Source: Promethearchaeota archaeon (GTDB lineage: Archaea; Asgardarchaeota; Lokiarchaeia; Sigyniarchaeales; SOKP01). Taken from it: a DNA stretch of 64,000 nt. A model generated the notes under the pieces. The model was not told the DNA's origin and made no database searches. It saw nothing but the letters and a program-made list of their open reading frames with translations. The stretch covers positions 34,420 to 98,419 of the forward strand of contig JAHPYZ010000005.1 of NCBI GenBank assembly GCA_019058425.1, read 5' to 3'. The position numbers and the translations under genes were made by a program. Positions 5,874 through 58,291 of this stretch are shown here, one piece after another; the first letter of the stretch is position 1, and each line of letters opens with the position of its first letter.

Positions 5874-6896
5874 ATGGAAGACAAAGAGGTATTAATAGCT
5901 CTTAATGTTGAGTTAAATCAAGTTTTTAATCTTCGTTATAGAAGACCGAAAAATCCACAAAACTATACATGGATATGTAATAATTGTAAGAAACAGGTTT
6001 ATTACAATGAATATGAAAACTGCTTCAAGCATAGGGGTTTAAAACCAGATGATTTTGAACCCGAGACTGTTGAACATAAAACAATGAAAGAATATTGTTA
6101 CAATACTTTTCCATTAGTTAATCCAATAACTTCCAGACAATTGGAATATCGGTTTGGAGATCAAATTGCAGATGTATATTTAGAGCTACGAGATGGTAAT
6201 AAAGTTGCAATTGAGTGCCAAAATTCTCCGATAACCAAGAAAAAGTTAATAAATCGAACAAAAAAATATGCTGCGAAAGATATCTATGTATTGTGGATTT
6301 TTAATGGCTCGAGTACATGTGTATCAGAAGAAAAGAAACCATTAAATATAGAAAAAGTTCGAGTTCTGGGAGAAGAAAAAAGAGTACATAATCTCTATGG
6401 TGGACGTATCTATTATATGAATGTAGTGGGAGATGAAGTTATCGACGAACCGTATGCTCTGCATTACTCCCCATATTTCGAAAACAAGCCATCTGAGACG
6501 AGTATTTATGGTCATGATAAATATTATAAAGAATATCAGAGTGTGACAGTTGGAAATATTCCTACTTATAAGATTGTATGTAATGAGTATAATGGGTATA
6601 AACTAGCACGGTTTATGGATAAAAATGTTAGTATTTCTTGCACTGATCAACTACTTACTCACATAAGAGATCTGTGTTTTAAACGAGTAGATGAAGGAGG
6701 GATAGATGAGAAGTATGAGTTTAAAATTTCGGTTGATTATATAATAGACTTGGTAAGAGAAGAATTTGGATACTTTTTACCATATTTGATTCTCAAAAGG
6801 TCAAGAAAAATCAAAAATGTTAAATTTGGAAAGACTATCGATGAGAATTATAACGTTCAAGAAATGTTGACATTTCGAACTACAGATTATTTATAG
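5874..6896 (+). CDS. CoiA-like nuclease-domain protein
   Basis: CNNCKKQ zinc knuckle followed by R..D...EL..G..VAIECQNSPI (CoiA/PD-(D/E)XK-like) and VLWIFNG. Confidence 0.6.
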   Translation: MEDKEVLIALNVELNQVFNLRYRRPKNPQNYTWICNNCKKQVYYNEYENCFKHRGLKPDDFEPETVEHKTMKEYCYNTFPLVNPITSRQLEYRFGDQIADVYLELRDGNKVAIECQNSPITKKKLINRTKKYAAKDIYVLWIFNGSSTCVSEEKKPLNIEKVRVLGEEKRVHNLYGGRIYYMNVVGDEVIDEPYALHYSPYFENKPSETSIYGHDKYYKEYQSVTVGNIPTYKIVCNEYNGYKLARFMDKNVSISCTDQLLTHIRDLCFKRVDEGGIDEKYEFKISVDYIIDLVREEFGYFLPYLILKRSRKIKNVKFGKTIDENYNVQEMLTFRTTDYL

Positions 6897-17381: not shown

Positions 17382-18476
17382 CTATACTATATTATCAAGA
17401 CTAACCTGTTTTGATTTCGATTGCTCCCTTTCAAACATGAAATGTTTTCTACAGCTATAATAATTATTTTCAAACTTTGTTAAATTCGACTTCACACGGT
17501 CTTTATTGAGGCGATGTTCTTCACATAGTAAAGACATAACTCTCGAGTTATGAGGAGAATTCCACATTATATTACCTGTATCTTTATTGATATCAGGTAG
17601 TAAAAAAAGACTTCTTATTTTTTTTATTATCTCTGAAGTTAAATCTTTAAAATTATATGTTCGATACTCTTTCAATTTAAGCTGTTCAAGAGTCTTGTAT
17701 TTTCTAATGAGTTGTAATGCTTTTTTGGCACCAATCCCTTTGATCCCTGGAAAAAAATCAGTCCCTATCAGAATACCAATATCTACTAATTGAAAGATGG
17801 AGATTTGAAGATTATTCAAATTCCTCTTAAGATCAATTCTTATTGGTTGAATTTTTTGATATTGCCATCTCCCTTGAACTTTCCTTCGTAATGATTTTGA
17901 AAGGTTTTGAATAACATGAGGGCATCCAAATAAGAGGGAATCGAAGTCTTGTGAATTTGAGAAATTTGCGATCCCTTGTTTCACTAAAAAAGCACATTGG
18001 GATTCTGCTGAAGAAGGTGCCTCTATACACGGAATCCCTAATGCTCCGAGAAGTTGCTTAGACTCCCTAATGATATTTTGCCACATGTATTCTTTACCTA
18101 AAGCAATCTGACGTGCTAATTCATAATTATGATTTTGCTGTGCTTCTTTATACCATTGTTGTATAAAAAGAAAATCTTTGAGTTGATCCTTTGTGATCAC
18201 TCTTTTAAGCTCAGAAACTTTCCCATCAAAACAGAAAATTGGAAATATCTTCTTCGAATATAGAAAATTAACTCTATACATTAGTCCATACAAATGGGAG
18301 ATTGGTCTTTGTGTTCTGTCTAGTATTAATCCCGCATAGGTGCTATCTGGATTTTTGCGTGTAAAATTGAACAAACCCATTATTATATTTGGAGCATCAA
18401 TCGATATGATCTTGCCTTGTAAGTCGCGAAAATCAATTTGTTTCCGAACAACTATATTTTGTAATTTAACTCCCAT
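17382..18476 (-). CDS. fen: FEN1/XPG-family flap endonuclease
   Basis: MGVKLQNIV..., N-domain SIDAPNIIMGLFNF, I-domain EAPSSAESQCAFLVKQG, IGTDFFPGIKGIGAKKALQLI H3TH. Confidence 0.9.
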   Translation of the reverse strand: MGVKLQNIVVRKQIDFRDLQGKIISIDAPNIIMGLFNFTRKNPDSTYAGLILDRTQRPISHLYGLMYRVNFLYSKKIFPIFCFDGKVSELKRVITKDQLKDFLFIQQWYKEAQQNHNYELARQIALGKEYMWQNIIRESKQLLGALGIPCIEAPSSAESQCAFLVKQGIANFSNSQDFDSLLFGCPHVIQNLSKSLRRKVQGRWQYQKIQPIRIDLKRNLNNLQISIFQLVDIGILIGTDFFPGIKGIGAKKALQLIRKYKTLEQLKLKEYRTYNFKDLTSEIIKKIRSLFLLPDINKDTGNIMWNSPHNSRVMSLLCEEHRLNKDRVKSNLTKFENNYYSCRKHFMFEREQSKSKQVSLDNIV

Positions 18477-24746: not shown

Positions 24747-26000
24747 TTAAGAATTCATTAACGCTTTTGCATTATTTTGCCATTCATTAACGGTTTTTAC
24801 CGAAGCGCCTGAGATACTTGCTGAAAGTTCTTCTGGATTTGCTGAAAGTAAATCTGATACAGTCTTTATTCCTTGAGCGCTCAAATTCTCTACAGTTCCC
24901 TTTCCAATTCCTTTTACTTGAATTAAAGGAAAGGGTTCACTTGACTGTTGATCTGAAATTTCATCTGATTCTTGACTATTATCATCATCTTCGTATAGAG
25001 TCTCCACTTCAAAATCTAATCCAGGTGATTCGGGAAGTTCTACTTTATCTGTATCAGCAACACCCGCTCCTGTTATAAAAAATTCACACTCTTCTGGTGG
25101 TAAATCAGGAGCATCTACGATTACAGCTCTACGCTTTAATGAGTTGTTTGATGAAAATCCCTTAGTCTTAAACATGACTCGAAAGTGACATCCATGAGCA
25201 ACGATATTGCCACCAATGGCATCATCCGCTGAAAACATCCCCATCATTTTAACTGCTACTTGATTTGTTAGTAAAACAGCACAATTATACGTTTCAGCTA
25301 CTCGTGATAATCCATGAATCATATTATTAAGGACAGCTTGTCTTGGAGCTAACTTTCCAATACCTATATATTCTGCTCGAAGTAGCGCCATTAAGCTGTC
25401 TATTATGATTAGACGCACTCCTCGAGTTTTACACAGAGTCTCAGCTTTCTGAATCATTTGAGCTTGATGATCTGAAGAGTAAATCCTGGCATGAAAAATC
25501 CTTGAAAGGATATCCTTTGGATTTAGTTCAAATCGCTTAGCAATTCGCTTAATTTTTTCTTTTGAAAATGTGTTTTCCGTATCTATGTAAGCAACCGCAC
25601 CATCAATTCCACCCTTTTTTTGAGGCAACTGAATAGTAACAGATATTGTATGTGCCAATGCTGTTTTTCCAGATTTAAATGGCCCATACACTTCGGTTAG
25701 TTTTCCGGTCTGAAAACCTCCTCCTAAAATCCGATTAAGCTCAGCAGAACCAGTGGTAAAATATTCTACATTATCATCGATCTTGGCAGCAGGAGTAAAA
25801 TCTGTCATGCCTAATGCGTTCCTAGCATTCCATATGATCTTTTTTGCGGTTTTTTCTCCAAGTCCGTCAATACTGGCTACAGTAGAAAGAGGTGTCATAG
25901 CGAGAGCTTCAGCAGTGCTTATTCCATTCTCCTGTAGCAATTTAATTTGCCGCGCATTGATTCCTTTAACTTGGTCTAAATCTGACATTCTTTTTTTCAA
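24747..26000 (-). CDS. radA: RadA recombinase with additional C-terminal HhH domain
   Basis: N-terminal HhH, Walker A YGPFKSGKTALAH, Walker B LIIIDSLMALLRAEYIG, C-term VKGIGKGTVENLSAQGIKTVSDLLSANPEELS. Confidence 0.9.
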   Translation of the reverse strand: MKKRMSDLDQVKGINARQIKLLQENGISTAEALAMTPLSTVASIDGLGEKTAKKIIWNARNALGMTDFTPAAKIDDNVEYFTTGSAELNRILGGGFQTGKLTEVYGPFKSGKTALAHTISVTIQLPQKKGGIDGAVAYIDTENTFSKEKIKRIAKRFELNPKDILSRIFHARIYSSDHQAQMIQKAETLCKTRGVRLIIIDSLMALLRAEYIGIGKLAPRQAVLNNMIHGLSRVAETYNCAVLLTNQVAVKMMGMFSADDAIGGNIVAHGCHFRVMFKTKGFSSNNSLKRRAVIVDAPDLPPEECEFFITGAGVADTDKVELPESPGLDFEVETLYEDDDNSQESDEISDQQSSEPFPLIQVKGIGKGTVENLSAQGIKTVSDLLSANPEELSASISGASVKTVNEWQNNAKALMNS

Positions 26001-31297: not shown

Positions 31298-32020
31298 TTA
31301 ATTTATTGAAATTCCACTTTGTTCTAAGGTATATGAAAAATTTTTAGTAAATTCAGTTGTTGTGATAGTAATTTCTTTTTCATGCATATTATACTTATTA
31401 CTTAGTATAATGTCAATTGTTTTTATCCTATCATATAACTTATAAAAGAATGATCTTAGCTTCGAAGATTTCGGATCAAAAGTAACTTCATGGATTAATA
31501 TTAAACCAATATTGGACCTCCTACAAAAAAGCATGAGTGGTAGAAGTTGGTTTTCATAAAATGAATCTAGAAATGCAGTAACATCTGAAATATTAGTAAA
31601 ATGAGTAATTCTATAGCGGAGATGGTGTGAAATGTTATCTATGACGATAAATCGCAAATCAGAGGGCAAAATTGTTGTAGGAGATATAATATTTCTTACG
31701 ATATCGCCTTGCGCTTTATAAGTATGAATAATATGACTTTGAGGAGTAATTAAAATATTCTCTTTTAAATAGCGTAATTTTTCAGGATAGTCTTTAAATA
31801 TTTGGTCTAACCGTTTAATAGGGAAAAGTTCACTTGCTTGAATCCAAACACATGAGCCATTACATTCCACCTCACTAGTCAATAAGTTTCCAATTAAAAA
31901 AAGAGCAAGAGTGGTCTTACCCGTTCCAGATTCTCCTGAAATTGATATAGGCAATTTATTCAAAAAAAGATGTTTGAACGCATCAATCAGTTTGGATTCA
32001 GAAATCATACTACTCTTCAT
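31298..32020 (-). CDS. RecA/Rad55-like P-loop ATPase
   Basis: Walker A SGESGTGKTTLALFLI; Walker B LRFIVIDNIS. Confidence 0.65.
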   Translation of the reverse strand: MKSSMISESKLIDAFKHLFLNKLPISISGESGTGKTTLALFLIGNLLTSEVECNGSCVWIQASELFPIKRLDQIFKDYPEKLRYLKENILITPQSHIIHTYKAQGDIVRNIISPTTILPSDLRFIVIDNISHHLRYRITHFTNISDVTAFLDSFYENQLLPLMLFCRRSNIGLILIHEVTFDPKSSKLRSFFYKLYDRIKTIDIILSNKYNMHEKEITITTTEFTKNFSYTLEQSGISIN

Positions 32021-32355: not shown

Positions 32356-33096
32356 TCACCATTTAGTATGTGGTTTTTTTGGTTTATACTGTCTCCTTGT
32401 AATAGGCTTCATTTTTACTTTATGTGGTTTTGTATAATCTCTTGCAAAGACTTTATTTATGCCTAGGTTAATACCAAGAATACTAAATCTTAATAGATGA
32501 TAGATCCCTGCAATAGATATATAGTAAAAGAACTCTATTACAAAGACTAATTGAAAAATTACTAAGATTATCCATAAAATACCGATCGAAAGTGAGATTA
32601 AGAATACTTGATATAGTGTATGTCTTAAATTATATCTAAAGGAACCTGTTAAAACTTTAAGGTCTCCTGCAGAGGGAGCTGCTGTTATTAACAATGAAAA
32701 TCCTATAAATACAGCTATTACTTTAAGTACCACATGGATACGAGGATCTACTGGTACCACAAACCACAAATAAAAAATCAACCACGTACTAATATAGAGA
32801 GGAGCTAAAGCGATTAAAAACGCTTGAAGGAAGGTCTTTCGTTTTTTAATCTCCACTTCTCCATGTGGATTTCTAATACCAAAGTATTCATCACGCCATT
32901 TTATCTTGATATGCTCAGGAATATGCCCAACTACTAAACTCATAACATAATGAGCTAATTCATGAAAGATTACTCCGATAAAAAATATTCTCATGGCAAT
33001 AGGTTTTAAAATTCCCGCATTCTCTCGGAATAAAATATATTTTAAAACAAGAGAAATGATTAAAATACCAAGAAATATAAAAGGCTCCTGTAGCAT
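32356..33096 (-). CDS. M50-type/DUF3267-like membrane metalloprotease
   Basis: FHELAHYVMSLVVGHIPEHI (HExxH in TM), multiple TMs. Confidence 0.65.
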   Translation of the reverse strand: MLQEPFIFLGILIISLVLKYILFRENAGILKPIAMRIFFIGVIFHELAHYVMSLVVGHIPEHIKIKWRDEYFGIRNPHGEVEIKKRKTFLQAFLIALAPLYISTWLIFYLWFVVPVDPRIHVVLKVIAVFIGFSLLITAAPSAGDLKVLTGSFRYNLRHTLYQVFLISLSIGILWIILVIFQLVFVIEFFYYISIAGIYHLLRFSILGINLGINKVFARDYTKPHKVKMKPITRRQYKPKKPHTKW

Positions 33097-37955: not shown

Positions 37956-38564
37956 TTGTCAATGACTTCAGGTGTGGATTCTTATGATTCAACAGGATCA
38001 TCTCGGAATATGATCCTAGTCTTCACTCAAATTGTCGATATATTAGAAAAATATAAAGATCAATTTGATAAAAAATTAAACTTTACAGAGCTACTTAAGC
38101 GATTAAAAATACCCACCTATGAAATTGATGAGATAATATCTTTCATATTAAAATTCCAATATATCTTTAAAAATATATTTCAGGAGCATGAATTGAAAAA
38201 ACAGAGAAGTAATAACACCGTCTACTTAGTGGCTGAAAGGATTTTTCGGAATGATATCCCAATGACGGTTGAAATCCTTCAATCACACATTAAATTGATA
38301 AATGATATTGTATATACCTTTAAGTTTGTAAAACGAGGGAAGGGATTTGATGTTACAAAGACCGGCTCTGATTTAATATCTAATCTAAAAAAAGTAAGAT
38401 CTGAGCATCCTTATCTATTCGAAAGTCATGGAAATGGAGCTATATATCCTTCGAAATTAGGATTAAGACTAGGGGAACTCATTATTTCCTATAATAAGAG
38501 TAATAAGGATATCAAGACGATTGAAATTGATAATTATACCTTTCACATAAGGAGTGATGAATAA
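37956..38564 (+). CDS. Hypothetical protein, probably helical/HTH
   Basis: 1-nt overlap with the Hef-like helicase gene. Confidence 0.5.
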   Translation: MSMTSGVDSYDSTGSSRNMILVFTQIVDILEKYKDQFDKKLNFTELLKRLKIPTYEIDEIISFILKFQYIFKNIFQEHELKKQRSNNTVYLVAERIFRNDIPMTVEILQSHIKLINDIVYTFKFVKRGKGFDVTKTGSDLISNLKKVRSEHPYLFESHGNGAIYPSKLGLRLGELIISYNKSNKDIKTIEIDNYTFHIRSDE

Positions 38565-40681
38565 TGGGCGAGATAAAGGAAGAGATGGCTGTTTCAGCCG
38601 CAATCAAGTCTAAGGAGCTCCAAATAAGACAGTATCAAATTAAAATTGCAAATGAATGTACTGACAAAAATTCATTAGTAGTAATCCCAACAGGTTTGGG
38701 AAAAACAATAATTGGAGTATTAGTAGCAAGTAAAGTATTAGAACGATTCCCACCAAAGAGTAAGATAATCGTGCTTGCCCCTACACGTCCACTTATTAAT
38801 CAACACTTTGAAACATTTATAAGATTTCTAAAAGTTCCTAAAGAGAATTGCGCTATTTTAACTGGTATGATTAAGCCGGAGGATAGAAGTGTAATTTTTA
38901 ATAACACTCAGTTATTGTTTTATACTCCCCAGACATTACGGAACGATTTGGTTCACAAGAAATATACTTTAAACAATACGGCATTGATAATTTTCGATGA
39001 AGCTCATCACACATCTGGAGATTATGCATATGCAATGATCGCTGATGAGTTTATCGACCATAATCCAGATGGAATTATCCTTGGTCTTACTGCATCACCA
39101 GGATCATCGAAGAACAAAATTAAGGCTTTATGCGAAAATTTGCATATTCCTCTCGAGAATATTCATATTCGGACACGAACGGATGATGATGTAAAGACTT
39201 ACCTCAAATCGATGGATATATACAAAATAGGAGTTGATATCACTCCGCTTATGGAAGATGTATACAAATTAATTACAGTAGTATTAGAGGAAAGACTTCA
39301 TTATCTTTCTCAGGTGAATTTCCTTGAAGCGAGAGGAAATCAGTTATATACAAAAATTATCCGGAAGGACCTTCTAAAATTGAATACAGAATTAGTAAGT
39401 CTACTAAAAGATAATGGAGATAAAACAGGAATATACAGTGCATTATCTATCAACGCACAAGCATTAATATTATATCACATGCTCGAATTAGTGGAGCAAC
39501 AGGGATTAAACGTATTATTGGACTATTTTAATAAGTTACATAAAGATGCTAAGAAGAAGAATAGCTCAAAAGCCAACAAAATATTGGCATCAGATAGTCG
39601 TTTGAACCGAATCTACCTTGAGCTAAAAAAAAATGCTGATTTCTCTCCTGAAAATTTATTCCATCCGAAATATAATATATTAAAAAAAATTCTCTTGGAG
39701 GAGCTACAAAGGAACCCTACATCAAGAATATTAGTATTTGTAAAATTGAGAAACTCGGTAAAAACTATTACAAATAAGCTTAAAGATATTAAGCTTATAA
39801 GACCTATACGTTTTGTAGGACAAGCAACAAAGTCTCAAGATGATAAAGGACTCTCACAGAAACGGCAAATAGAAATCCTTGAGGAGTTTAAAAAAGGAAT
39901 ATATAACACGTTAATTGGTACAAATGTCGCAGAGGAAGGCTTGGATATAGCTGAATGTGATCTTGTCATCTTTTATGATGTGGTTGCTTCAGAAATTCGA
40001 TATATCCAACGGAAAGGAAGAACTGCACGACATCGTCAAGGAAAAGTGGTAATACTATATAGTAAAAAGACTCGTGATGAGATATATTTACGAATTGCAT
40101 TAAGTAAATTAAAGCGGATGAATGTGAATTTAAAAGAACCTCACCATTCAAATAATCAATTAATTCCAGATAAAGTAGAAATTAGAAAGGAACCTCATAA
40201 AGATACAGCTCACATTCAATCCTTCACACCCCAGAGAAAAAGATTCACAAAACAACATCAATCAAAGTTGACAGGTTTTATCGACCAAAAACCTCAAGAG
40301 TATCCAATAAAGATAAGTAAGTTTCTACCAATGAAATTTGGATTGCGAAAACGATTTCAGGATGATAATATTGCATATGGTATTGGTGATTCTGATCTCC
40401 ACATAATAATCTATAATAAAGTTCTTATCCAAATCTACAATCCAGAACAATTCAATTCTGAGAAGCTAATGCAAGACATCAGTGACTTTACCCAAATCTC
40501 TTCATTAATTATAATAATTTTTGATTTTATAGATTTTAAGGAATCCATTGAAGGAGAAAAAAGGATCTTAAAAAGAAATATCCAAGCAATGGCAAAAAAA
40601 AACCACATTCAAGCAATAACTATTGATAATGAAGAGGAATTGTACTTTATCATCAAAAATATAATAGAAAATCCTAACTAA
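38564..40681 (+). CDS. Hef/FANCM-like superfamily 2 helicase
   Basis: PTGLGKTIIGVLVA, FDEAHHT, TASPGS, EEGLDIAECDLVIFYD, QRKGRTAR. Confidence 0.87.
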   Translation: MGEIKEEMAVSAAIKSKELQIRQYQIKIANECTDKNSLVVIPTGLGKTIIGVLVASKVLERFPPKSKIIVLAPTRPLINQHFETFIRFLKVPKENCAILTGMIKPEDRSVIFNNTQLLFYTPQTLRNDLVHKKYTLNNTALIIFDEAHHTSGDYAYAMIADEFIDHNPDGIILGLTASPGSSKNKIKALCENLHIPLENIHIRTRTDDDVKTYLKSMDIYKIGVDITPLMEDVYKLITVVLEERLHYLSQVNFLEARGNQLYTKIIRKDLLKLNTELVSLLKDNGDKTGIYSALSINAQALILYHMLELVEQQGLNVLLDYFNKLHKDAKKKNSSKANKILASDSRLNRIYLELKKNADFSPENLFHPKYNILKKILLEELQRNPTSRILVFVKLRNSVKTITNKLKDIKLIRPIRFVGQATKSQDDKGLSQKRQIEILEEFKKGIYNTLIGTNVAEEGLDIAECDLVIFYDVVASEIRYIQRKGRTARHRQGKVVILYSKKTRDEIYLRIALSKLKRMNVNLKEPHHSNNQLIPDKVEIRKEPHKDTAHIQSFTPQRKRFTKQHQSKLTGFIDQKPQEYPIKISKFLPMKFGLRKRFQDDNIAYGIGDSDLHIIIYNKVLIQIYNPEQFNSEKLMQDISDFTQISSLIIIIFDFIDFKESIEGEKRILKRNIQAMAKKNHIQAITIDNEEELYFIIKNIIENPN

Positions 40682-47026: not shown

Positions 47027-49465
47027 CTAATTATTTTTTTCCTTAATAATCTTCTTGCAGAGATTAAATCCTAATCCTGTTTTTTTATTAAGATTGTACG
47101 GAGTTTCTTTTTTAACTTGAGTTGAAGTGTGATATCCAGCGTTATATAATATACGGGCTCTTACGCGTGCCACATCCTGTAATCTTAATACTAAATCGAA
47201 TAATTCTTCTCGAATCCCGTACTGCAATCGAATTTCTAATGTTTCTGCCATTTCAGCGATACGAGTCAGTTTATCTTGAAGATCTCTTCCTTGCGTACTT
47301 AAGTTTTTAGCGATATATCCAATAAATACGATAATACGCTTTAGACTATCTCGTACAGAAAATAGGTCACCAGCCATAATATTATACTTCTCCAAGATCT
47401 TGTCTAAATTCTCTTCCTCTGCCCATTCTAAGATCGGATTGAGCATCTTATTATCTCTTACCCTAAACTCTGCTTTTAATATATCATAGGCTTCCTTTAT
47501 TAATTCTTGAAAACTATTCATTTCGACATTTTCAAGTTTGTTTCTAATCATTACACCGGAAACAGGATATAAATACAATCGAATAATTAACTTACCAAAT
47601 TGAGAGCATTTTATAGTTCCATCATCGTTCTTGATAATTAGACCTTTTTCAAATAAGTAATTAAGAATGTACTGATTTTTCACTGAATTGGGTATTATCG
47701 AATCAATATATTTCTGGAAATATACATCAGGGAGCTGTATTAAATAAATGAGAAAACTTGAAACATGATCGCAGAATTCAAAATTGAACTCTTCACTAGC
47801 AAAATTATCCGATATCCCATTTTCAAATCCACATGAGCATTGAATTCCATTCTCAATGTCAAACTGAGATAAATATACCCCATAGGGCGTCTTTATATAT
47901 CCTGAAATATTCGACTCACTAAATTTAGATATTCTTATCTGAAAATTTTCTTTTTTTAAAGATTTAACTTTTTGAGCATTGGAATGAAGTTTTAAAATGT
48001 TTATTGGTGTAATCTCCTTAATCATGAGGAGCTGTTCAATTGGAATTTTCTGTTCTTTCATCTTATGTTTAATACCATACCAAAAGTAAGTTTTTTCGAA
48101 AAATTGTGCTAATTGCTCTAATGTAATTTTTTTTTCCTCATAGATTCTTAGAAGAGTTTGCTCTTTAAGAGTATTTATTTTATTTAATCCAGAGTTAAGA
48201 TTATTATAACGAGGTTTCATATTTCCCTGAAGAGGAATAGTCTCAAAAAAATGATCTTCCACCCACATTTTTTCTTCGATATCCCTTACTAAAATTACTC
48301 CATATCCAACTGAATCTAATCCTGGACGACCGGACCTTCCCAAAATCTGATGACATTCATTTGCTGAGAACGGCTTGAAATAAGAAAACCCATCTCCATT
48401 CTCATGATATCCTGCAAAATTTCTGATGTTATGACCTGAGGTAATATATTTCTTATAATCTTTTAATATAACTAACCGTGCAGGTGTGTTTATCCCAGCG
48501 GATAAAGTGGTTGTACAGCATATTACCTTGATGATCCGTCTTCTAAAATTATCTTCGATGATTTTTCTTTCTTTTGGAAGTAATCCCGCGTGGTGAAACG
48601 CAACTCCTGATTTAATAACATTTCTTAAGTCTTTATGCCCTCCTTTAATTGATAATAGTCGCTTTTCTAACGCTTTACACACATTTAATTCATTTTCTTT
48701 TAAAGTCTTCTTCACTAAACTCTTAATAGTTTCAGCTGATTTTTGTGTTCCTTTTCGTTTATTGAGAAATATTAAAACTTGACCATCTTTATCAAGTGTT
48801 GCTTTTGTTAAGCGTTTTATTGTAGAATCTTTATTTTGTGTAATTTCAATTTTATAATGGAGTGGAACAGGGCGATTATCAGATGAGATTAAAATGGTCT
48901 CATTCCCAAGAGAATTCAACCAAGAATTAAAAAATTCAGCATTAGCAATAGTAGCTGAAAGAGAAATTAGTTGGGGATTATGTAAAAATTCATTTAAACG
49001 AACAATAAGAGATTCCAACCGTGGACCGCGATCAGATTCACCAATAATATGAATTTCATCAATAATAATCGTGGAAATATCGAAAATCCATTCTTTATCA
49101 TAAAAATTTCTTAAAATTGAATCCATTTTTTCATATGTAGTCACAATGATATCTGCTTTCTCTAGCTTTGTATCATTGACCTCATAATCACCAATTGATA
49201 GCTCTACTTTGACACTGAAACGTTCATATGCCTTCTTGAAATGAAAGTATTTTTCAGTAGCAAGAGCTTTAAAAGGAACTAAATATATAGATTTACCAAA
49301 CTTTTGAAATACATTATTAACCGCGCAAACCTCTCCAATTAGAGTTTTTCCACTTCCAGAAGGAGCACAAACTAAGAAAGATTTTCGAAAGAATAGACCT
49401 TTTTTTATTGTTTCTTTTTGAATTTCTCGTAATTGAAAGATCCTCCCCTCAAAAAGAACCCTCAA
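47027..49465 (-). CDS. Ski2/Hel308-like DExH helicase
   Basis: APSGSGKTLIGE, IIIDEIHIIGE, LSATIANAEFF, HQILGRSGRPGLDSVG. Confidence 0.82.
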   Translation of the reverse strand: MRVLFEGRIFQLREIQKETIKKGLFFRKSFLVCAPSGSGKTLIGEVCAVNNVFQKFGKSIYLVPFKALATEKYFHFKKAYERFSVKVELSIGDYEVNDTKLEKADIIVTTYEKMDSILRNFYDKEWIFDISTIIIDEIHIIGESDRGPRLESLIVRLNEFLHNPQLISLSATIANAEFFNSWLNSLGNETILISSDNRPVPLHYKIEITQNKDSTIKRLTKATLDKDGQVLIFLNKRKGTQKSAETIKSLVKKTLKENELNVCKALEKRLLSIKGGHKDLRNVIKSGVAFHHAGLLPKERKIIEDNFRRRIIKVICCTTTLSAGINTPARLVILKDYKKYITSGHNIRNFAGYHENGDGFSYFKPFSANECHQILGRSGRPGLDSVGYGVILVRDIEEKMWVEDHFFETIPLQGNMKPRYNNLNSGLNKINTLKEQTLLRIYEEKKITLEQLAQFFEKTYFWYGIKHKMKEQKIPIEQLLMIKEITPINILKLHSNAQKVKSLKKENFQIRISKFSESNISGYIKTPYGVYLSQFDIENGIQCSCGFENGISDNFASEEFNFEFCDHVSSFLIYLIQLPDVYFQKYIDSIIPNSVKNQYILNYLFEKGLIIKNDDGTIKCSQFGKLIIRLYLYPVSGVMIRNKLENVEMNSFQELIKEAYDILKAEFRVRDNKMLNPILEWAEEENLDKILEKYNIMAGDLFSVRDSLKRIIVFIGYIAKNLSTQGRDLQDKLTRIAEMAETLEIRLQYGIREELFDLVLRLQDVARVRARILYNAGYHTSTQVKKETPYNLNKKTGLGFNLCKKIIKEKNN

Positions 49466-49576: not shown

Positions 49577-49843
49577 TTAGTAAGGATTGGTCCATTTCTT
49601 CATAAGTTGCGTAAAAGTCTCTGAATCTCTAGAGATCTCAATGCTTTTAATAATACCAATATTACGAATTTCCAGCTCAGAATTGAGATAGCAAATTATT
49701 GCATGTAGAGGATTTCCATGTAAATGAATGTGGGGAAAATTGATATCACTATTCTTGCTTTCCAAAATAAAATTTTCCACACCAATTATTATCTTTTCAT
49801 TGCAAAAAGGACAAATAATAGATTTTTTGGAACTACGCTTCAC
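49577..49843 (-). CDS. Small zinc-ribbon-like protein
   Basis: ICPFCNEKIIIG at N-terminus. Confidence 0.4.
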   Translation of the reverse strand: MKRSSKKSIICPFCNEKIIIGVENFILESKNSDINFPHIHLHGNPLHAIICYLNSELEIRNIGIIKSIEISRDSETFTQLMKKWTNPY

Positions 49844-49998: not shown

Positions 49999-52497
49999 AT
50001 GATACCTATGACCTTATTGCAAGAAAAACCAGATCAAATTGAAAAAGAGAGTGAGAGAACTGAAACTCAATTGGATCAAGATACAAGTCTCACTCCAAGC
50101 ATTGTTAAAGAAGAAATCACTGTAGTGAAGGGTGTTGGACCTCGTACTAAGGAGATCCTACAGAATGCAGGAATTTTTTCAATAATCCAACTTGCACAAT
50201 CATCTGCAACTAAATTAATTCAAATAGGTATTGGAGAAGCAACAGCAAAAAAGATAGTTGCTGGAGCTAAAGAGCATATCCATAAAAAGAATTTAGACGC
50301 CTATGCTCAGTTTGCGGAAACATTAGATGATAATAATCCTGAAAATGAACCTTTAATACTCAAAGATGATCCTTTCTTTAATTCTGAAATTGAACAAATA
50401 GAAGATGATGATAATACTAACTCGAATTCAGATGCTTTAGATCGGAATCTAAATAGTTCTCCCGATTTAAAAAGTGAAGCTTGGTTTGATGGAAAGTTCA
50501 ATTATTCTAGGTTAACCGGTAGTAGCAATTTGGAAAGGGAATTGAAAGATGATGTTGAAATTAATTCATCAGGAAGTATTGATTCTTCATTTGAATATCA
50601 AGAATTTAATGATGAGGAAAGTCAAGATGATGTAGTTGACTTTCAGAAAAATGAAATTGAAATTTCTCAAAATTTGGACACAACATTAGAAGCTGAGAAA
50701 AGCGCCTTAAATTATAATTTAATTACAAATAGTGAAATTAAAATTGCCTTTAAGACAGCTGAGAATCTTTTTAAAACATATGAAGAGGAAGATGATGCTT
50801 CACCAATTTTAGTTCAATATAATAAAGGACTTGAAATGTTTCTAGATGAAAATGTAGCATCATTTCTAAATCACTTGGTAGAAAAGTATAAAAGAGAAGG
50901 TATTAGAAAAACAAATACTTCTCTTGAATTTCAAAAGAATTTTTGGCCGCTTGTTATAGATAAATCAATTAGTCCAGTAAGTTGGCAAATTATTCTAGAT
51001 CAAATTGAAAATAAAAAATTACCAGAAGATGTACGAGAATTTAATCAATGTCTTAAAAGCAATTTAAGCATTAAAATTCGTAAAATTATAGTTTTGACTT
51101 GTAATATAATTGCTTCAAAATCTAAAAGAAATGAAAAAACCCATAAAAAATTATGCAAAATAGAAGAATTAAGAACTATAAGAGAAGAGGCTATTCCTTT
51201 ATTAAATCAATTAATTAATATTTTCTATAATAATATTTCTCAAGAGAGTATTGAGTATGAACCAGTTGATGCAACAGAAATTTCAAGATTCCAACCTGAT
51301 AGGCAGTTAAAGGAACCAAGACCTCTTCAAGAGATGAATTCCTTTCAAAATATTAACTCTGCTATTGAGAAGTTGAATAGAAAAGTCAAGTCAGCAGAAT
51401 ATTTCGTTATTGAAAAGGATCATAAACTACGCCCTTTATTTGTGGGGATTGATACTATTGCTTTAAAACTAATTCGAGTAAAAGAATTCCTAGATATAAT
51501 TTGTATTGTTCCAATTATAATGAGTAAAATGGAAGGAGCGTTCACGATCTCAGAGAATGTAATTGATTATACTCCGATACATGAAAATGAAGGTAGACTT
51601 CAATCCAAAAAAATGGCACAAGGATATATAAACACCTTAAAGAGAGCAGAAGAAACTATCTTCAATGACCTTACAAGTAATGGTGAGCTCTCGAAATACA
51701 TAATGAAATTTCTCGATATTATGGTCTCTGTGGAAAGAACAATTACTCATAAAACATTATATCTTCATTCAGGACCATTAGAATATGAAGTGTTAATAGA
51801 ACCCATTATTGTATGCAAGAATACAGTAGGATTTACAGAAAAACTTATTCCATTTGCATATATGAAAGATCCTAATCTTCACATCGTTAATATCTCCGAT
51901 TTATCTGATTTATTATCATACTTAGATCAAAAATACTTTCTCATTGAAACTTATTCAGAAAAGAAGAATGCGAATACCTTAAATCATGAAGCTCAATATA
52001 ACTTCGCGAAACAGATTAGGTTAGCCTCCATCCCGTTTACCATATACGGATTTACCCTCCTATTGATATTTTTATTTCAGGAATTTTCGCTTCTTTCATT
52101 ACTAATCAATATTGGATACGGACTTATAGGACTCTATACGGTAGTTATCAGTTATATTTATTTGCGATTATCACATCAAAAAACTCAGATAAGGCAAAAA
52201 TTTGCTATCCCATATCATAAACGGGATTTAGGTTTAAATAATGCAAAGATGCGCTTAATCAAAGAACAGTTACCTCTAAAATTGATGGAACAATTTGGAT
52301 ACGAAACTTTAGGGAAAAATTCAAAATCCCCGGTAATGGAAGAAGTTGAGCAAGACAGTGCACAATCGTTTCTTACTAATAAAGCTATGAAAAAACGAGT
52401 AGAAGAAGCAAAGTTATTTGAAGAAGATATCGATAATTCTAGAGCTAAAATAAGTCCCGATGCAGTTGATAAATACAGTTCATTTTTGGAGGATTGA
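49999..52497 (+). CDS. HhH-domain protein with C-terminal TM segments
   Basis: VVKGVGPRTKEILQNAGIFSIIQLAQSSATKLIQIGIGEATAKKIVAGAKE; TM at SIPFTIYGFTLLLIFLFQEFSLLSLLINIGYGLIGLY. Confidence 0.7.
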   Translation: MIPMTLLQEKPDQIEKESERTETQLDQDTSLTPSIVKEEITVVKGVGPRTKEILQNAGIFSIIQLAQSSATKLIQIGIGEATAKKIVAGAKEHIHKKNLDAYAQFAETLDDNNPENEPLILKDDPFFNSEIEQIEDDDNTNSNSDALDRNLNSSPDLKSEAWFDGKFNYSRLTGSSNLERELKDDVEINSSGSIDSSFEYQEFNDEESQDDVVDFQKNEIEISQNLDTTLEAEKSALNYNLITNSEIKIAFKTAENLFKTYEEEDDASPILVQYNKGLEMFLDENVASFLNHLVEKYKREGIRKTNTSLEFQKNFWPLVIDKSISPVSWQIILDQIENKKLPEDVREFNQCLKSNLSIKIRKIIVLTCNIIASKSKRNEKTHKKLCKIEELRTIREEAIPLLNQLINIFYNNISQESIEYEPVDATEISRFQPDRQLKEPRPLQEMNSFQNINSAIEKLNRKVKSAEYFVIEKDHKLRPLFVGIDTIALKLIRVKEFLDIICIVPIIMSKMEGAFTISENVIDYTPIHENEGRLQSKKMAQGYINTLKRAEETIFNDLTSNGELSKYIMKFLDIMVSVERTITHKTLYLHSGPLEYEVLIEPIIVCKNTVGFTEKLIPFAYMKDPNLHIVNISDLSDLLSYLDQKYFLIETYSEKKNANTLNHEAQYNFAKQIRLASIPFTIYGFTLLLIFLFQEFSLLSLLINIGYGLIGLYTVVISYIYLRLSHQKTQIRQKFAIPYHKRDLGLNNAKMRLIKEQLPLKLMEQFGYETLGKNSKSPVMEEVEQDSAQSFLTNKAMKKRVEEAKLFEEDIDNSRAKISPDAVDKYSSFLED

Positions 52498-53228
52498 TGA
52501 ATATAAAAGGAGTTCATATATTTAAATTTAGCTTTCTCATTGGACTAATATTATTGTTTCTTTCCGTGTTTGTAGAGTGGTATTCTTATCAGATATTTAC
52601 CTTAGAACAGGAACTCATAGTTTCATGGAAATATAATATTTTTTGGGAATGGTCATCAATATTTAGTGATTCTCCGCTCAATGAGGCTTTACGCCCTGAA
52701 AATCTATCTATTTCAGTACCCCTAAATATAATCTTCTTATGTTTCCTCTTTTTATCTGGATATGTAATCCTTTTTAAAGATATTGAACGTGTGGATTCCA
52801 TTATAAAATATCGTCCTTATAGTTATGTACTTGGAATAACCCTTATTTTAAACATCTTTTATGTGGTTGTATTTCCTGTTATGTATTTATTTCCTCAAGA
52901 ACTTTATTTTCCCTTTATTCAAATTGTAGATTATGAGCAAGATTTTATGTATCTTTATTCTATTGATATAGGATATGTCTTACAATTAATTGCTTTTATG
53001 TTAATTTTTCCATTTCCAATTCATTATTTTCGTACAATATATACATTTGATAATGAGAAAAACAATCCTGAAACCTACTTAAAGAATAAAATTCAGGATG
53101 CTCAAGAACCGTTAGATCTTGATAAATTAATTGCTCAAGAAGAGCTCAAATTCCAAAATTCTGATAGGACTATACAAGAAGATGATCTAAACGAAATAAT
53201 TAATTTATTTATCGAGGGAGACTCATGA
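52494..53228 (+). CDS. Multi-TM membrane protein
   Basis: Four hydrophobic segments; overlaps neighbours. Confidence 0.6.
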   Translation: MMNIKGVHIFKFSFLIGLILLFLSVFVEWYSYQIFTLEQELIVSWKYNIFWEWSSIFSDSPLNEALRPENLSISVPLNIIFLCFLFLSGYVILFKDIERVDSIIKYRPYSYVLGITLILNIFYVVVFPVMYLFPQELYFPFIQIVDYEQDFMYLYSIDIGYVLQLIAFMLIFPFPIHYFRTIYTFDNEKNNPETYLKNKIQDAQEPLDLDKLIAQEELKFQNSDRTIQEDDLNEIINLFIEGDS

Positions 53229-54085
53229 GTACCGAAATATCCGAAGTAAAATTAAAAGCCTTGATTCAGATATGCAAAGAGACGAAAAATAACAAAAAAT
53301 TAGCGGTGGTGAGTTTTATTTTATCTAGTAACAAACTAGATGAAACTGGAATAACCTTGGGATTTCGAAAACGAAACAAAAATGCAGGAGAGACTATATA
53401 TGACTATATGACAACCATTAATCAGATTTTTCAAAAAAACTTACAGTTATCAATTTTTACAGACGTCCAAATTGAGGTTATAAGAGAGTGTGAGCCAATT
53501 TTTTTAATGAGTAAAGGGGATATAGCGATTCAGTATATAAAAAAGATGTTTACGCTCTACTTTGAATTATGCAAATTGAAAGTACCTAATCTTCATAAAG
53601 AGATTCCTCATGAAGGATTAACAGGATCTAGAAGCTTAAACTACCTTTCTTTTTTTTCCTCTAATAATGGGAGGAGGAAAAAAGATTCAAACACCCTAAC
53701 ACCTTTACTGCTTCAACAAATTAAATATTTAGAACGAAAAAATCAAGAAGAACTTAAAAATAAATTTGATCCAGAAAAATTTGAGAAATCCATCCACTTA
53801 CATGCTATAAAAACCACGATTGAACAGAAAGGAAGAAGAGGAATTCACATCCAAGGACCATTAAAACATAATATATCATATCAGATGGCTATTGAAAGTA
53901 TTTATACATACTTCCTCATTGGTTTAATTTTTCTCACCATTTCTCTGGGGATAATCATTTTACTGGAACTCAGTTATTTTCCCAATCAATTAGGAAACTT
54001 AAGTAATTGGTCTATTATTATTTTCGGTGTTTCAGGGCTTTTGATATTTCTTTATATTATACAATTTCGTAAGGAGGTAAGATAG
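53225..54085 (+). CDS. Protein with soluble N-terminal region and two C-terminal TMs
   Basis: YFLIGLIFLTISLGIIILLELSYF and WSIIIFGVSGLLIFLYII. Confidence 0.6.
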   Translation: MSTEISEVKLKALIQICKETKNNKKLAVVSFILSSNKLDETGITLGFRKRNKNAGETIYDYMTTINQIFQKNLQLSIFTDVQIEVIRECEPIFLMSKGDIAIQYIKKMFTLYFELCKLKVPNLHKEIPHEGLTGSRSLNYLSFFSSNNGRRKKDSNTLTPLLLQQIKYLERKNQEELKNKFDPEKFEKSIHLHAIKTTIEQKGRRGIHIQGPLKHNISYQMAIESIYTYFLIGLIFLTISLGIIILLELSYFPNQLGNLSNWSIIIFGVSGLLIFLYIIQFRKEVR

Positions 54086-54087
54086 AG

Positions 54088-57000
54088 ATGGTAAAGATTT
54101 ATGTTCCGGAGGAAAAAGAACTATACACAAGAAAAATGAAGAAGCTCCAAAAGAAAAAAGCAGAAACAAAGGAAATTGAATCTGAAGAATCTCAAGCTTA
54201 TTTTAATATATGGGATATGCACCCATCCTTTAAAGACATTAATAACGTTTTTTCAATAATTAAAACATTATCTCTTATAGCGTTAATATTGCTGGTAATA
54301 AGTGTCTCTTATATCTTTAACCAAAATCTCTTTCTCTCTTTATTAATTGGATTAGTGATCTTAAGCGTATTTATCATTGTCTTCCATGATGAGTTTTTTT
54401 TGTTAAGAAAAGTCTTTTCTTCTGCATTTTCAAAGAAACTCACATTCAATCCATTTGAACATTTAATATTTTGGTTTGATAAAGATGAACGATCTGTACT
54501 TTATTGTACCAACCGAAGTGATCTCTCTAATATAGCTATTCAAGTCTTCAGAGTAGAAGTTATTCCAGAAAAAGTCGAACCTACTATAAGACATTTTTTA
54601 CGTTCCTTAAGTATGGAAAATATAGAAAATATAAGACTCTCCTTTTCATATCAAGTGGTTCAGCGCCCTAAAATAGATTCCTTTGGAAAGGGTGCTCCCC
54701 GATATACTTCGATGCAGTCTTTGGGATCCTTTACTACTTCTATTTATTTTACTGTGTTCTGTCATAGAAAAGGAATATTAACTAATAGTAAATTAGACTA
54801 TCTTCGACATTATATAAATTTATTTTCAGTAATTTTTAGAAATAATCTCGTCGCGAACTTCCATCACTTTAAAATAAAATTACTATCGGATCTTGACTTA
54901 ATCAATGCTCTAAGGACATTTTATATTAAAAAAGATATATCTTTATCGACTGGAGTGGTAAATAAAAGAGAAATGATAAATGGCTCCAAATTCAATAATG
55001 TTGGGAGATTTCTCTTTTGTGTCATTATTGTAATCTATTTTCTATACTATCTTTGGAATAATCACATTCCATTTATCTATATTATAAGTATTAATATTGG
55101 AATTCCTACCTGCATTTTATTGATCTGGTGGCGTTCTTTATTTTTTCAAGTAACCAAAAAAAAAATTATAACCACAGAAAATATTTCTCTTGTAAACCCT
55201 TTTGAAGATGTACAATTTTACAGACTACGAGAATTTCCATATAGCTTATTTCTCCATATCAACAACAAACTTTTATTAGGTATCAAGATGGTAAATTTAA
55301 AATATATTAAAAAAAGACCATATAGCCATATGGAAGGATTTTTTGAAAGTTTGAACAGCGCTCAGATCCCTTTTAGTTATACCTTAAAAAATAGACCAAT
55401 TGGATACTACGAATTCTATCGATATGGATTAGATCATGTTCGTGAAAAGCTTCAAAAAGAATTACGCTGGAAACATATAAGAAATAAAGCTGATGAAGAA
55501 GAGTGGTTAAGTACAAGACGTGGGATGTGGTATAGTATTCTTACACTTTCCGTACATACTTATAATTTTATTACAACCGTAACCCGAGACCAGTTTTATG
55601 AGCTTGAAGAAGAGCTTATAAATAAAAATAATAGACTCAAAGGTTCATTTAATTCAGTATTCCAAAATTTTAAAATCGAGGATCTGCGATCGAAAAGATT
55701 GTTGTCTGGGTATTTATTCACATCTCTAAAAAATAACCATTTTAGGATGAATGGTACACAATTATACGAATTAATGATGCAAGGTGTTACCTTAACTCCC
55801 TTGAATACCATCGTGAATGTGTTTAAAAAGGGAATCGAGACAAAAGTCGCAGCAGAATTCAACACACCACTCTATTTAGAAAATTATATTACATATGGCC
55901 ATACAGAAAATACAGAAATATTAGAAAGTGAAGTACCTGCTGGATTTACCTTAAAACAACTGAAGAATTTACTCATTGTACAAGGTACAACCACACATAG
56001 AGATTTAATGTCTATGAAACTGGTGTCAGAGTTAATCAAAATAGATTGTCCTTGTATTGTTTTTGATTTTGATGGCACATGGTCTAAACTTATAGACTAT
56101 TTTAAAAAGACTCATCATCTTAGTAATATTCTATACTTTAAATTAGGAAGTGCATTTACTATTGATCCTCTTGTTTCAGATATTCCCTATGATACAAATA
56201 ATCCAGAATACCTTGAATATATGTTTGATGCGCTTGCACTTGCGTTTAAAAAGGACCAAAGATTCATTGATATGTTTCGAGCTTTTATTAAGAAAAATCC
56301 AGGGAAAGATTTTAAATCATTAGAATTAGAATCAGAAACTCAAAATGAATGGCAAAAGCGACCAAATGATGATTCACTTTTAACTTTATTTACAAATTTT
56401 ACTCATCAAGATCTTTCATTATTTCAAGGGTTTGCAGGTAGAGAAAATATTCATGCACACGATTTTGTAGTAAACAAAAAGACGGTAATTATAGATCTCT
56501 CCTCATTACGAGATCTTGATAAGAAACTCTTTGGCACATTTGTAATTCTCTCAAAAATTATCCATTATATTAAAAATGGAAATGAATTCCAGGATAAGAT
56601 AATTGTGGTTCCCAATATCGATCTCTTTTTCAATGCCACCTTTTTAGACTGGAAGATGAATTACGGTAAAATTAATACTTTCTTAGATCCACTTATCAAA
56701 CAAGGATTTGGATTCATATTTTCTGCAAATAAGATCCACTATCTTCATTCCCATTTGTTCAATTACTTCCATAATTTCATATCATTTAGAACTATAGAAC
56801 ATCGCAGTATCTTACTCTTAAAGAATCTAATGAATCTTCAAGAAATGTCAGGAGCGGGTTATTATTCTTCTAAGAGAAATAATGCTTATCAATTTGAATA
56901 TTTAATGAATTTGAAAAATAATGATATTTTAGTCCGAAGGGATGACATTTATCAAGCTTTTCCCGCCTCGGTAGAGTGGACTACATTACAAAATTCCCCC

Positions 57001-57927
57001 GTACACCACTACGAAGATATAGTAAATTTTATGGAAACTCAAGGCTATAACTTAGCTTATAATGAGCAAAAAATACTCCAACAAGCAAGAAAAACCATAT
57101 TTGAAAAAGATTTAGTAAATTATTTTCCATATTTACAAGAAATCATTATTTTTCTCGATGAAGTAAAAAGCATTGATCAGATTGGTAATAACTACGCTCA
57201 AAAACTTAAAAAACAACTAAAACAAATTCTGTATCCAAAAATATCCCAAAAGACCAATAATAAAGAATATATCAAAAAATTAAGAGATGGAATATTTAAT
57301 ATTTTATTGAAACATGGGTATCTGATAGAAGGGCATCCAAAACGGGCTGGTGGTTCAGAAGCGTTAAGAACTTCTTATCTTGTTGGAGATCAATACCAAA
57401 TTGCCCTCGAAGATTATTTCGAAACTACTGGAAGAGCTGCGTCTGATATTAATGTAGAAATCCTCGAAAAAGGAATACAAGGATCTGAGGAGATACCCTC
57501 TTTATTATCTCCTGAGTCTCAGTCTCGGAAATTTATCATTCAAAAGGGGAATTTAAGAGAAGCATGTGCTCGAGAATTTAGTGATTTTAATTATGAGGTA
57601 TTCAAAATTGATAAATTTATTGAGGATAATGATTTTAAAAATGCAGCGAAATTGGAGAGAGGGCTCATAAAGAAGTTCCTAGAATCAATTTATCGACATT
57701 TTTATGATATTGATCATAAAATTTCTTCTAATAAAATGGAACAATTTATAGCTGCAATAGCAGATTCAGAAGGATTTCCCTTTACAAAACAAGAATACCA
57801 AGACTATTATGAAAAATCTGATAACCTTAATTTAAATACTGAAAATTTAAAAGAAATGACCGAAGATGTATATCACCACATCTTCCAGTTCTTAGCAAAA
57901 ATGTATAATTATCTTTATGGAAAGTGA
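54088..57927 (+). CDS. Membrane-anchored HerA/VirB4-like ATPase-fold protein with degenerate Walker motifs
   Basis: LLIVQGTTTHRDLMSMKLVSELIKIDCPCIVFDFDGTWSKLI; KTVIIDLSSL; IIVVPNIDLFF; pairs of TMs near the N-terminus. Confidence 0.55.
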   Translation: MVKIYVPEEKELYTRKMKKLQKKKAETKEIESEESQAYFNIWDMHPSFKDINNVFSIIKTLSLIALILLVISVSYIFNQNLFLSLLIGLVILSVFIIVFHDEFFLLRKVFSSAFSKKLTFNPFEHLIFWFDKDERSVLYCTNRSDLSNIAIQVFRVEVIPEKVEPTIRHFLRSLSMENIENIRLSFSYQVVQRPKIDSFGKGAPRYTSMQSLGSFTTSIYFTVFCHRKGILTNSKLDYLRHYINLFSVIFRNNLVANFHHFKIKLLSDLDLINALRTFYIKKDISLSTGVVNKREMINGSKFNNVGRFLFCVIIVIYFLYYLWNNHIPFIYIISINIGIPTCILLIWWRSLFFQVTKKKIITTENISLVNPFEDVQFYRLREFPYSLFLHINNKLLLGIKMVNLKYIKKRPYSHMEGFFESLNSAQIPFSYTLKNRPIGYYEFYRYGLDHVREKLQKELRWKHIRNKADEEEWLSTRRGMWYSILTLSVHTYNFITTVTRDQFYELEEELINKNNRLKGSFNSVFQNFKIEDLRSKRLLSGYLFTSLKNNHFRMNGTQLYELMMQGVTLTPLNTIVNVFKKGIETKVAAEFNTPLYLENYITYGHTENTEILESEVPAGFTLKQLKNLLIVQGTTTHRDLMSMKLVSELIKIDCPCIVFDFDGTWSKLIDYFKKTHHLSNILYFKLGSAFTIDPLVSDIPYDTNNPEYLEYMFDALALAFKKDQRFIDMFRAFIKKNPGKDFKSLELESETQNEWQKRPNDDSLLTLFTNFTHQDLSLFQGFAGRENIHAHDFVVNKKTVIIDLSSLRDLDKKLFGTFVILSKIIHYIKNGNEFQDKIIVVPNIDLFFNATFLDWKMNYGKINTFLDPLIKQGFGFIFSANKIHYLHSHLFNYFHNFISFRTIEHRSILLLKNLMNLQEMSGAGYYSSKRNNAYQFEYLMNLKNNDILVRRDDIYQAFPASVEWTTLQNSPVHHYEDIVNFMETQGYNLAYNEQKILQQARKTIFEKDLVNYFPYLQEIIIFLDEVKSIDQIGNNYAQKLKKQLKQILYPKISQKTNNKEYIKKLRDGIFNILLKHGYLIEGHPKRAGGSEALRTSYLVGDQYQIALEDYFETTGRAASDINVEILEKGIQGSEEIPSLLSPESQSRKFIIQKGNLREACAREFSDFNYEVFKIDKFIEDNDFKNAAKLERGLIKKFLESIYRHFYDIDHKISSNKMEQFIAAIADSEGFPFTKQEYQDYYEKSDNLNLNTENLKEMTEDVYHHIFQFLAKMYNYLYGK

Positions 57928-58291
57928 GATTATGGTAAAAGAAAATAAAAATCTATCGAACCAAATCGAAAGTATTCTCTTTGATGAGACCAATCTAAAT
58001 GTATTAAAAAATTCGATTAATAGTTTGAGTAAAGGTACTCTCGCACCAAAAGTAGTGAAGGAACAAATTATTGAGTTCAGATTAAATGCTGTGCAGGAAA
58101 TTGTAAAATTGTTTAATTTCTATCACAGACAGTTAACAACAGCAACATCATTAGATAAATATACGGAGAATACAATTAACAACCAGTTAGAGCAAGATTT
58201 ATTTGAGAAAAACGATTTTCTTGAGGATGTTGGTAAACGGATTCAAAATATTCATACAAAATTAAAGAATAAATTAAAGATAAATCCCTAA
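57917..58291 (+). CDS. Small hypothetical protein, last gene of the cluster
   Basis: Overlaps the upstream ORF by 11 nt. Confidence 0.5.
   Translation: MESEIMVKENKNLSNQIESILFDETNLNVLKNSINSLSKGTLAPKVVKEQIIEFRLNAVQEIVKLFNFYHRQLTTATSLDKYTENTINNQLEQDLFEKNDFLEDVGKRIQNIHTKLKNKLKINP

Follow-up and report, generated by a model that had tools for sequence, protein, structure and literature searches.

A cluster of five overlapping membrane-protein genes

The subject of this study is a cluster of five genes, here named A to E, in a 64,000-nucleotide stretch of DNA ("the window") from a Promethearchaeota archaeon of the Lokiarchaeia (assembly GCA_019058425.1, contig JAHPYZ010000005.1, positions 34,420 to 98,419). 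The window is the end of this contig (C99), and the genome measures 4.6 Mb. An initial annotation of the window had described five tightly packed plus-strand genes, and all five open reading frames (ORFs) were confirmed with the sizes and positions given in Table 1. Every junction is overlapping or abutting: A and B meet at TGATG, B and C at ATGA, and D and E overlap by 11 nt. The GC content of the cluster is 0.300 and that of the window 0.306. Four transmembrane segments (TMs) are predicted in protein D, as two hairpins, and the even TM numbers of A, C and D predict that their soluble domains are all cytoplasmic. Some relatives of E are longer than E itself (about 300 aa). The genes, the fold of D, its loss of Walker A, its domain duplication, the gene linkage and the intact helicase motifs described below were all determined by computation.

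Protein D gave no match in sequence searches of Pfam, NCBIfam or the PDB, so the guess that it has a HerA/VirB4-type fold, made initially from its motifs, was not an obvious one. An AlphaFold (AF2) model of residues 100-1279, built from 29 sequences, reached a mean predicted local distance difference test (pLDDT) score of 81.5. When this model was compared with the PDB by Foldseek, VirB4/TrwK ranked first, over about 1000 alignment columns (E 1e-17), and HerA came after it (E 4e-9). Profile comparisons agreed: against active Asgard HerA profiles, hhalign gave 94.6% (E 6.5e-8) for the ATPase-like region of D and 97.5% (E 6.5e-12) for the split forms of other Asgards described below, and DUF87 matched one D orthologue above its cut-off. 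The P-loop ATPase fold that had been proposed is thus present. By all three methods D has the RecA-like fold of the HerA/VirB4 core, and through this fold, not through catalytic motifs, it is a member of the FtsK/HerA superfamily.

D is a fusion protein, in which two homologous units, each a 2-TM hairpin with a VirB4-type N-terminal domain (NTD), are joined to a dead ATPase-like domain. The beta-domain-containing units match each other (hhalign 98.5%, E 1.7e-15) and also stand-alone genes of about 300 aa in other Asgards (99.2%). A viral or plasmid origin of D was considered and rejected: the viral contigs of IMG/VR gave no confirmed relative, and the 72,556 plasmid records of PLSDB gave none. 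The viral fold matches of D were mostly generic VirB4/HerA-like or packaging NTPases.

Table 1. Positions of the cluster, of its parts and of further features in the window.
Feature	Position	Strand	Description
A	49999..52497	+	832 aa; RadA-like helix-hairpin-helix (HhH) at 39-92, conserved core ~445-660, two C-terminal TMs, KYSSFLED tail
B	52494..53228	+	244 aa; 4-TM membrane protein
C	53225..54085	+	286 aa; cytoplasmic domain and C-terminal 2-TM hairpin
D	54088..57927	+	1279 aa; ATPase-dead VirB4/HerA fold (almost certain), two [2-TM + NTD] units and ATPase-like domain
D, residues 40-302	54205..54993	+	first 2-TM + VirB4-NTD-like unit
D, residues 300-545	54985..55722	+	second 2-TM + VirB4-NTD-like unit
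D, residues 633-640	55984..56007	+	degenerate P-loop GTTTHRDL; canonical would be GxxxxGK[ST]
D, residues 842-845	56611..56622	+	replaced Walker B, PNID; most split forms in other Asgards have DD/DE
E	57917..58291	+	124 aa; small soluble protein, no TM, overlaps D
F	58445-60367		usually next after A-E, same direction
u88	49577..49843	-	small Cys-containing protein between Hel and A; kept in many loci (synteny)
Hel	47027..49465	-	Hel308-paralogue superfamily 2 (SF2) helicase, 812 aa; motif I APSGSGKT and DEIH intact; divergent from A-E
RadA3	24747..26000	-	the module's RadA, a divergent paralogue and the third; 417 aa with Walker A GPFKSGKT; 100% match to f8 operon RadA
XPG	17382..18476	-	XPG/FEN1-family nuclease (Pfam); hhalign 99.9% to f8 operon XPG (t+5)
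AAA ATPase	31298..32020	-	GESGTGKT (Pfam); hhalign 96.2%, E 2.4e-9 to f8 operon AAA (t+2)
5-TM protein	32356..33096	-	conserved HExxH, beside AAA gene; module role tentative
Hef-like	38564..40681	+	SF2 helicase; orthologue missing from most Lokiarchaeal genomes without Hel

Protein D has lost its Walker motifs

At the P-loop position D reads QGTTTHRDL, and at Walker B it reads VVPNID, so both motifs are missing from the window protein, as had been annotated. The canonical GxxxxGK[ST] was found in 0 of 79 homologous ORFs of D, whereas HerA-type proteins, taken as a control for the count, carry it in 7 of 10 cases. In most other Asgards the degenerate loop reads G[ST]xxxR. The loss of Walker A thus extends to every homologue examined, but that of Walker B does not: the acidic pair is missing from D and its fused Lokiarchaeal orthologues, where PN or a similar pair is found, and intact as DD or DE in most split forms. 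All together, D is almost certainly an ATPase-dead protein of VirB4/HerA fold. Because the P-loop is missing from all 79 ORFs and G[ST]xxxR recurs, recent decay does not account for the loss. Walker A would have gone first, or early, with retention of an Arg-containing loop, a course that would amount to neofunctionalisation and not to decay. It is rare for a VirB4/HerA-family protein to be without the ATP-binding motif in every homologue examined across a phylum and to be conserved nevertheless, as D is.

The HhH domain of A (Pfam HhH_5, 2.5e-8) is nearest to the N-terminal HhH of RadA (NCBIfam RadA, 7.4e-6), and Foldseek also returned RadA/RAD51, as a weak match (E ~0.02); the resemblance to RadA noted initially is therefore real. 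Beyond this domain, the model of A (mean pLDDT 62.7) had no confident fold match. In most of 16 orthologues, A ends after a variable linker in KYSSFLED, which stands at the extreme C-terminus (window 52462-52494) and is a probable docking peptide. A homologue of B was found in a second family, f2 (hhalign 96%); outside f2, hhalign detected no homology between B or C and the small TM proteins of other classes, in a test limited by weak profiles.

The cluster is conserved across Lokiarchaeia

Homologues of D occur in 31 of 58 related genomes, mostly at 28-55% identity, and the named carriers are nearly all Lokiarchaeota. The usual order in complete loci has Hel and u88 on one strand and A-B-C-D-E, usually followed by F, diverging from them on the other; this order is conserved across Lokiarchaeia, and the wider neighbourhood is partly syntenic among relatives. 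Conservation in so many genomes with kept gene order is more than chance, and the expectation that the order would reach beyond this genome was borne out. A count of 193/228 obtained with a broad profile was rejected as the size of the family, since its weak matches include genomes without D (G003) and may be ordinary HerA.

Among the 37 genomes of family f1, 18 have both D and Hel, 9 have neither, and 5 + 5 are discordant (Fisher p 0.015, from raw counts that ignore phylogeny), so that co-occurrence is only moderate. The five genomes with Hel and without D have it on small contigs or near contig ends, and one of them keeps a piece of A beside Hel. The Hef-like orthologue and the third RadA are missing from most Lokiarchaeal genomes without Hel or D.

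Several irregular copies were seen. In G013, the beginning of A, with its HhH, runs in frame into the C-terminal portion of D as one ORF (L037:11039-14725); the RadA3 of this genome is broken into fragments, its Hef-like gene survives only in part, and this module is decaying or remodelled. One copy of D in G017 has a stop. Extra D paralogues stand in other gene contexts (L042, L043, L044, L047, L051, L054), for example with 186-aa and 368-aa genes upstream, and one of them has an internal stop. A complete Lokiarchaeal-type Hel-u88-A-B-C-D-E locus stands on a contig of 12,387 bases (L219) in a Heimdall-type metagenome-assembled genome, listed under Candidatus Hodarchaeum mangrovi; this is either horizontal transfer or a misbinned contig.

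A split form beside a helicase in other Asgards

Outside Lokiarchaeia, the parts of D are separate genes: a 2-TM NTD protein and a dead ATPase of about 530 aa, with a weak C-terminal winged-helix match, that stand beside a Hel308-like helicase. Across 43 such loci, a Hel308 paralogue lies within 10 kb of the dead VirB4 in 23, a divergent RadA within 12 kb in 21 and an XPG/FEN1 nuclease within 12 kb in 16; several of the remaining loci sit on contigs under 11 kb. Short genes for proteins with 1-3 TMs are also present at loci of other lineages.

Linkage is tightest in family f8, where the helicase lies 0-51 nt from the dead VirB4 in 16/16 loci examined, most of which form a one-strand operon of about 15 genes in near-identical order across many genera. 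This operon starts with RadA (354 aa), an XPD-like helicase, a 2-TM NTD protein, the dead VirB4 (~785 aa) and the Hel308-like helicase; a 2-TM protein, an AAA ATPase, a multi-TM protein, a RadA-like protein and XPG make up the remainder. One of its VirB4 NTD units is separate and one fused. Intact ATPases (Hel308-type, RadA, AAA and XPD-like) are thus encoded beside the dead VirB4. In two families, the dead-VirB4/Hel308 genes continue into overlapping NifH-like (L195) and nitrogenase-component-like (L196) genes.

Most of the f8 gene set is found in the window within about 40 kb. The five-gene cluster first annotated is real but is part of a larger unit, with Hel and u88 on the other strand and RadA, XPG and AAA elsewhere in the window. 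In Lokiarchaeia, A-E are the form taken by a membrane module that is Asgard-wide.

Partner enzymes and other genes of the window

The initial annotation had called for a search for an active partner ATPase, and the best candidate, judged by its sequence, is the intact Hel308-paralogue helicase that adjoins the cluster. Motif I of this helicase was checked at 21 loci and in the window, and it is intact in all of them. Hel scores 305-407 bits against NCBIfam Hel308-type models, under their equivalog cut-offs (343.7 vs 1200; 407 vs 887), and the Hel genes of the module in general score about 325-410 bits against cut-offs of 887-1216. Canonical-like Hel308 genes with 754-863 bits are found elsewhere in G054, G056 and G060, and in G124 as two pieces of one frame; none was found in eight or nine f1 genomes searched, some of which also lack the module paralogue. 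By these scores Hel is a paralogue distinct from canonical Hel308, probably a dedicated one, and we consider it very probable that the dead VirB4 and this helicase are functionally linked. An active membrane HerA (3 TM, GATGTGKS) is not favoured as the partner motor: it is also found in G003, which has no D, and it is unlinked.

A single branch (support 81/81) separates the module RadAs from all main RadAs in a tree with long branches. A second RadA clade has been reported in some Asgards (PMC12722695), for which the module RadA offers a candidate genomic context. The HExxH of the 5-TM protein is present in 7/7 orthologues, and its neighbours are the AAA ATPase and a 1-TM protein; it looks like an intramembrane metalloprotease.

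Two related large proteins (window 7964-12799 and 34964-37891, both +) are likely surface-anchored: each combines alpha-alpha toroid (Prenyltrans) domains with a hydrophobic segment at the N-terminus and a TM at the C-terminus. The 975-aa one of the two shows synteny with the cluster in many relatives. A gene at 5874-6896 (+) encodes a CoiA-type nuclease domain (Pfam PF06054, 4.4e-11), named for a competence protein, and is not conserved alongside the module in the relatives checked.

A possible role in DNA import

The evidence supports the initial proposal of a DNA-linked membrane complex. Our tentative preference is for a module that couples homologous recombination to the import of DNA, or to its exchange between cells: a Ced-like system, by analogy, whose motor has moved to a helicase. 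The preference for import rests on Ced and Ted, the nearest systems, which are importers derived from type IV secretion systems (T4SS), with a VirB4-type NTD that can be split over two proteins and with ties to recombination genes. For such a machine we infer ring assembly, docking, an inward direction of DNA movement and import as follows. The two 2-TM hairpins of D would anchor its two VirB4-like NTDs and its ATPase-like domain at the cytoplasmic face, where D presumably forms a VirB4-like ring or platform at a membrane pore. Protein A would hold its DNA-binding HhH domain, which is of RadA type, at this membrane and present DNA, and B and C would complete the membrane part. The Hel308 paralogue may dock at this complex and pull single-stranded DNA (ssDNA) across the membrane or away from it, probably replacing the ATPase of VirB4, in a role comparable to that of ComFA with ComEC. 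Processing and recombination of the strand might then fall to the dedicated RadA, the XPG/FEN1 nuclease and the AAA ATPase.

Several results weigh against import. No VirB6/CedA channel was recognised among the conserved partners, although no homology comparison with CedA was made; the Pfam/NCBIfam scans run annotated no VirB2/CedA1 pilin; there was no relaxase or VirD4 coupling protein family among the scanned window and operon genes, of which the lack of a relaxase counts here; and no large extracellular receptor was recognised among the conserved partners. The small TM proteins of different lineages resemble neither each other nor B and C, within the limits set by weak profiles. D is patchy in Lokiarchaeia (23/37 f1 genomes), and the RadA tree has modest support and long branches. 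Moreover, repair without transport explains the Hel308/RadA linkage almost as well. A membrane-tethered recombination and repair hub, in which a dead VirB4 ring and A anchor collapsed forks or chromosome ends for the Hel308 paralogue, RadA and XPG, is a possible if rather unlikely alternative. It fits the repair and recombination enzymes among the conserved partners, the lack of a recognised channel or pilin, the RadA-like HhH of A and the cytoplasmic placement of the soluble domains of A, C and D; but the dedicated paralogues, which stand beside main RadAs and, in several lineages, beside canonical Hel308, argue for a separate pathway, and VirB4 NTDs combined with 2-TM units make up the architecture of transfer machines.

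The direction of transport could also be outward. A conjugation-like donor machine, or one that loads DNA into vesicles, with Hel308 feeding ssDNA through a VirB4-like port, would agree with conjugative TrwK as the nearest structural relative, and R388-type VirB4 works in export. Such a role seems improbable: the conserved sets have no relaxase or VirD4-like partner, D has no homologue in the plasmid records and no confirmed one in IMG/VR, and RadA with XPG fits a recipient better. We give slightly less credence still to defence against plasmids or viruses, or to a mobile element. Patchiness of the Lokiarchaeal island, with Hel, Hef and RadA3 often missing from the same genomes as D, would suit it, as would the HerA defence complexes among the Foldseek matches of D and the resemblance of Hel to HamB helicases in PADLOC. 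However, PADLOC gave no match for A-E and only generic SF2 matches for the helicases, no integrase or hallmark was present among the scanned window genes, the GC content of the cluster equals that of the window, and the near-identical f8 operon order across many genera is unlike defence islands. That D merely lost its motifs as the system eroded is very improbable. Broken copies do exist, such as the A-D fusion with fragmented RadA3 in G013 and the D with a stop in G017, but phylum-wide conservation largely refutes erosion: all homologues across the phylum lack Walker A, yet they retain open reading frames and invariant residues at other sites.

Returning to import, its fullest version is an undescribed Asgard-wide DNA-exchange machine in which VirB4 serves as an ATP-independent membrane ring and a dedicated Hel308 motor feeds a dedicated RadA; we regard this as conceivable but doubtful. 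Asgard archaea are the closest known relatives of eukaryotes. If this version were true, these relatives would have a genetic-exchange (proto-sexual) apparatus; Asgard gene exchange bears on the origin of eukaryotic sex, and the cluster supplies named genes to test. Searches of the openly licensed literature in PubMed Central (PMC) found no description of the A-E cluster, nor of a DNA-import or T4SS system in Asgards.

Comparison with known systems

Hel is a Ski2/Hel308-type SF2 helicase with intact motif I and DExH, and differs from Hel308 itself as a distinct paralogue that is linked to a dead VirB4 and scores below the equivalog cut-offs. D shares with HerA-NurA a HerA-fold domain tied to recombination genes; unlike HerA, it is membrane bound and ATPase-dead, and no NurA was identified in the cluster. 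HerA-type genes are present elsewhere in the source genome, and also in G003. The module resembles bacterial transformation (ComEA HhH receptor, ComEC channel, ComFA helicase) in the concept of an HhH binder, a membrane part, a helicase motor and a recombinase, but no homology to ComEC or ComFA was shown and the HhH of A is predicted to be cytoplasmic. With VirB4/TrwK of conjugative T4SS, D shares the fold of its N- and C-terminal regions by Foldseek, whereas its four TMs in two hairpins, its duplicated NTD and its lack of a P-loop set it apart; no other T4SS component was recognised.

Both Ced and Ted import DNA and derive from T4SS, and their genes show linkage to, or co-regulation with, those for recombination (PMC11868833, PMC9905601). 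Ted of Thermoproteales has, like the Asgard module, a VirB4-like protein and small membrane proteins beside recombination genes, and its loci co-occur with HerA and Rad50 (PMC9905601); it differs in its repair partners, its TedC pilin and TedA channel, and in TedB, described as a VirB4/CedB-like ATPase. Initially the cluster had been likened in concept to Ced, and that likeness is still an inferred one, no pilin or VirB6 channel having been recognised. Ced of Sulfolobales (CedA, CedA1, CedA2, CedB, CedD, CedE) differs from the module, in which D lacks the Walker lysine, no active VirB4/CedB-like gene was found in the cluster, and dedicated Hel308, RadA and XPG paralogues are present. No homologue of CedA/CedE or CedA1 was recognised, with no comparison made between CedA and the multi-TM genes at hand (B, the 5-TM gene and f8 operon t+3). 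The likenesses lie in the VirB4/HerA-type membrane fold, in the architecture of TMs, VirB4-type NTD and ATPase-like domain, and in a two-part NTD: CedB and CedD, both required for DNA import, divide a VirB4 NTD between them (PMC11868833), and D has two NTD units. The proposed role, DNA uptake serving homologous recombination, is also shared. By the tests run, the module is not a member of Ced or of T4SS, but it may still work like Ced.

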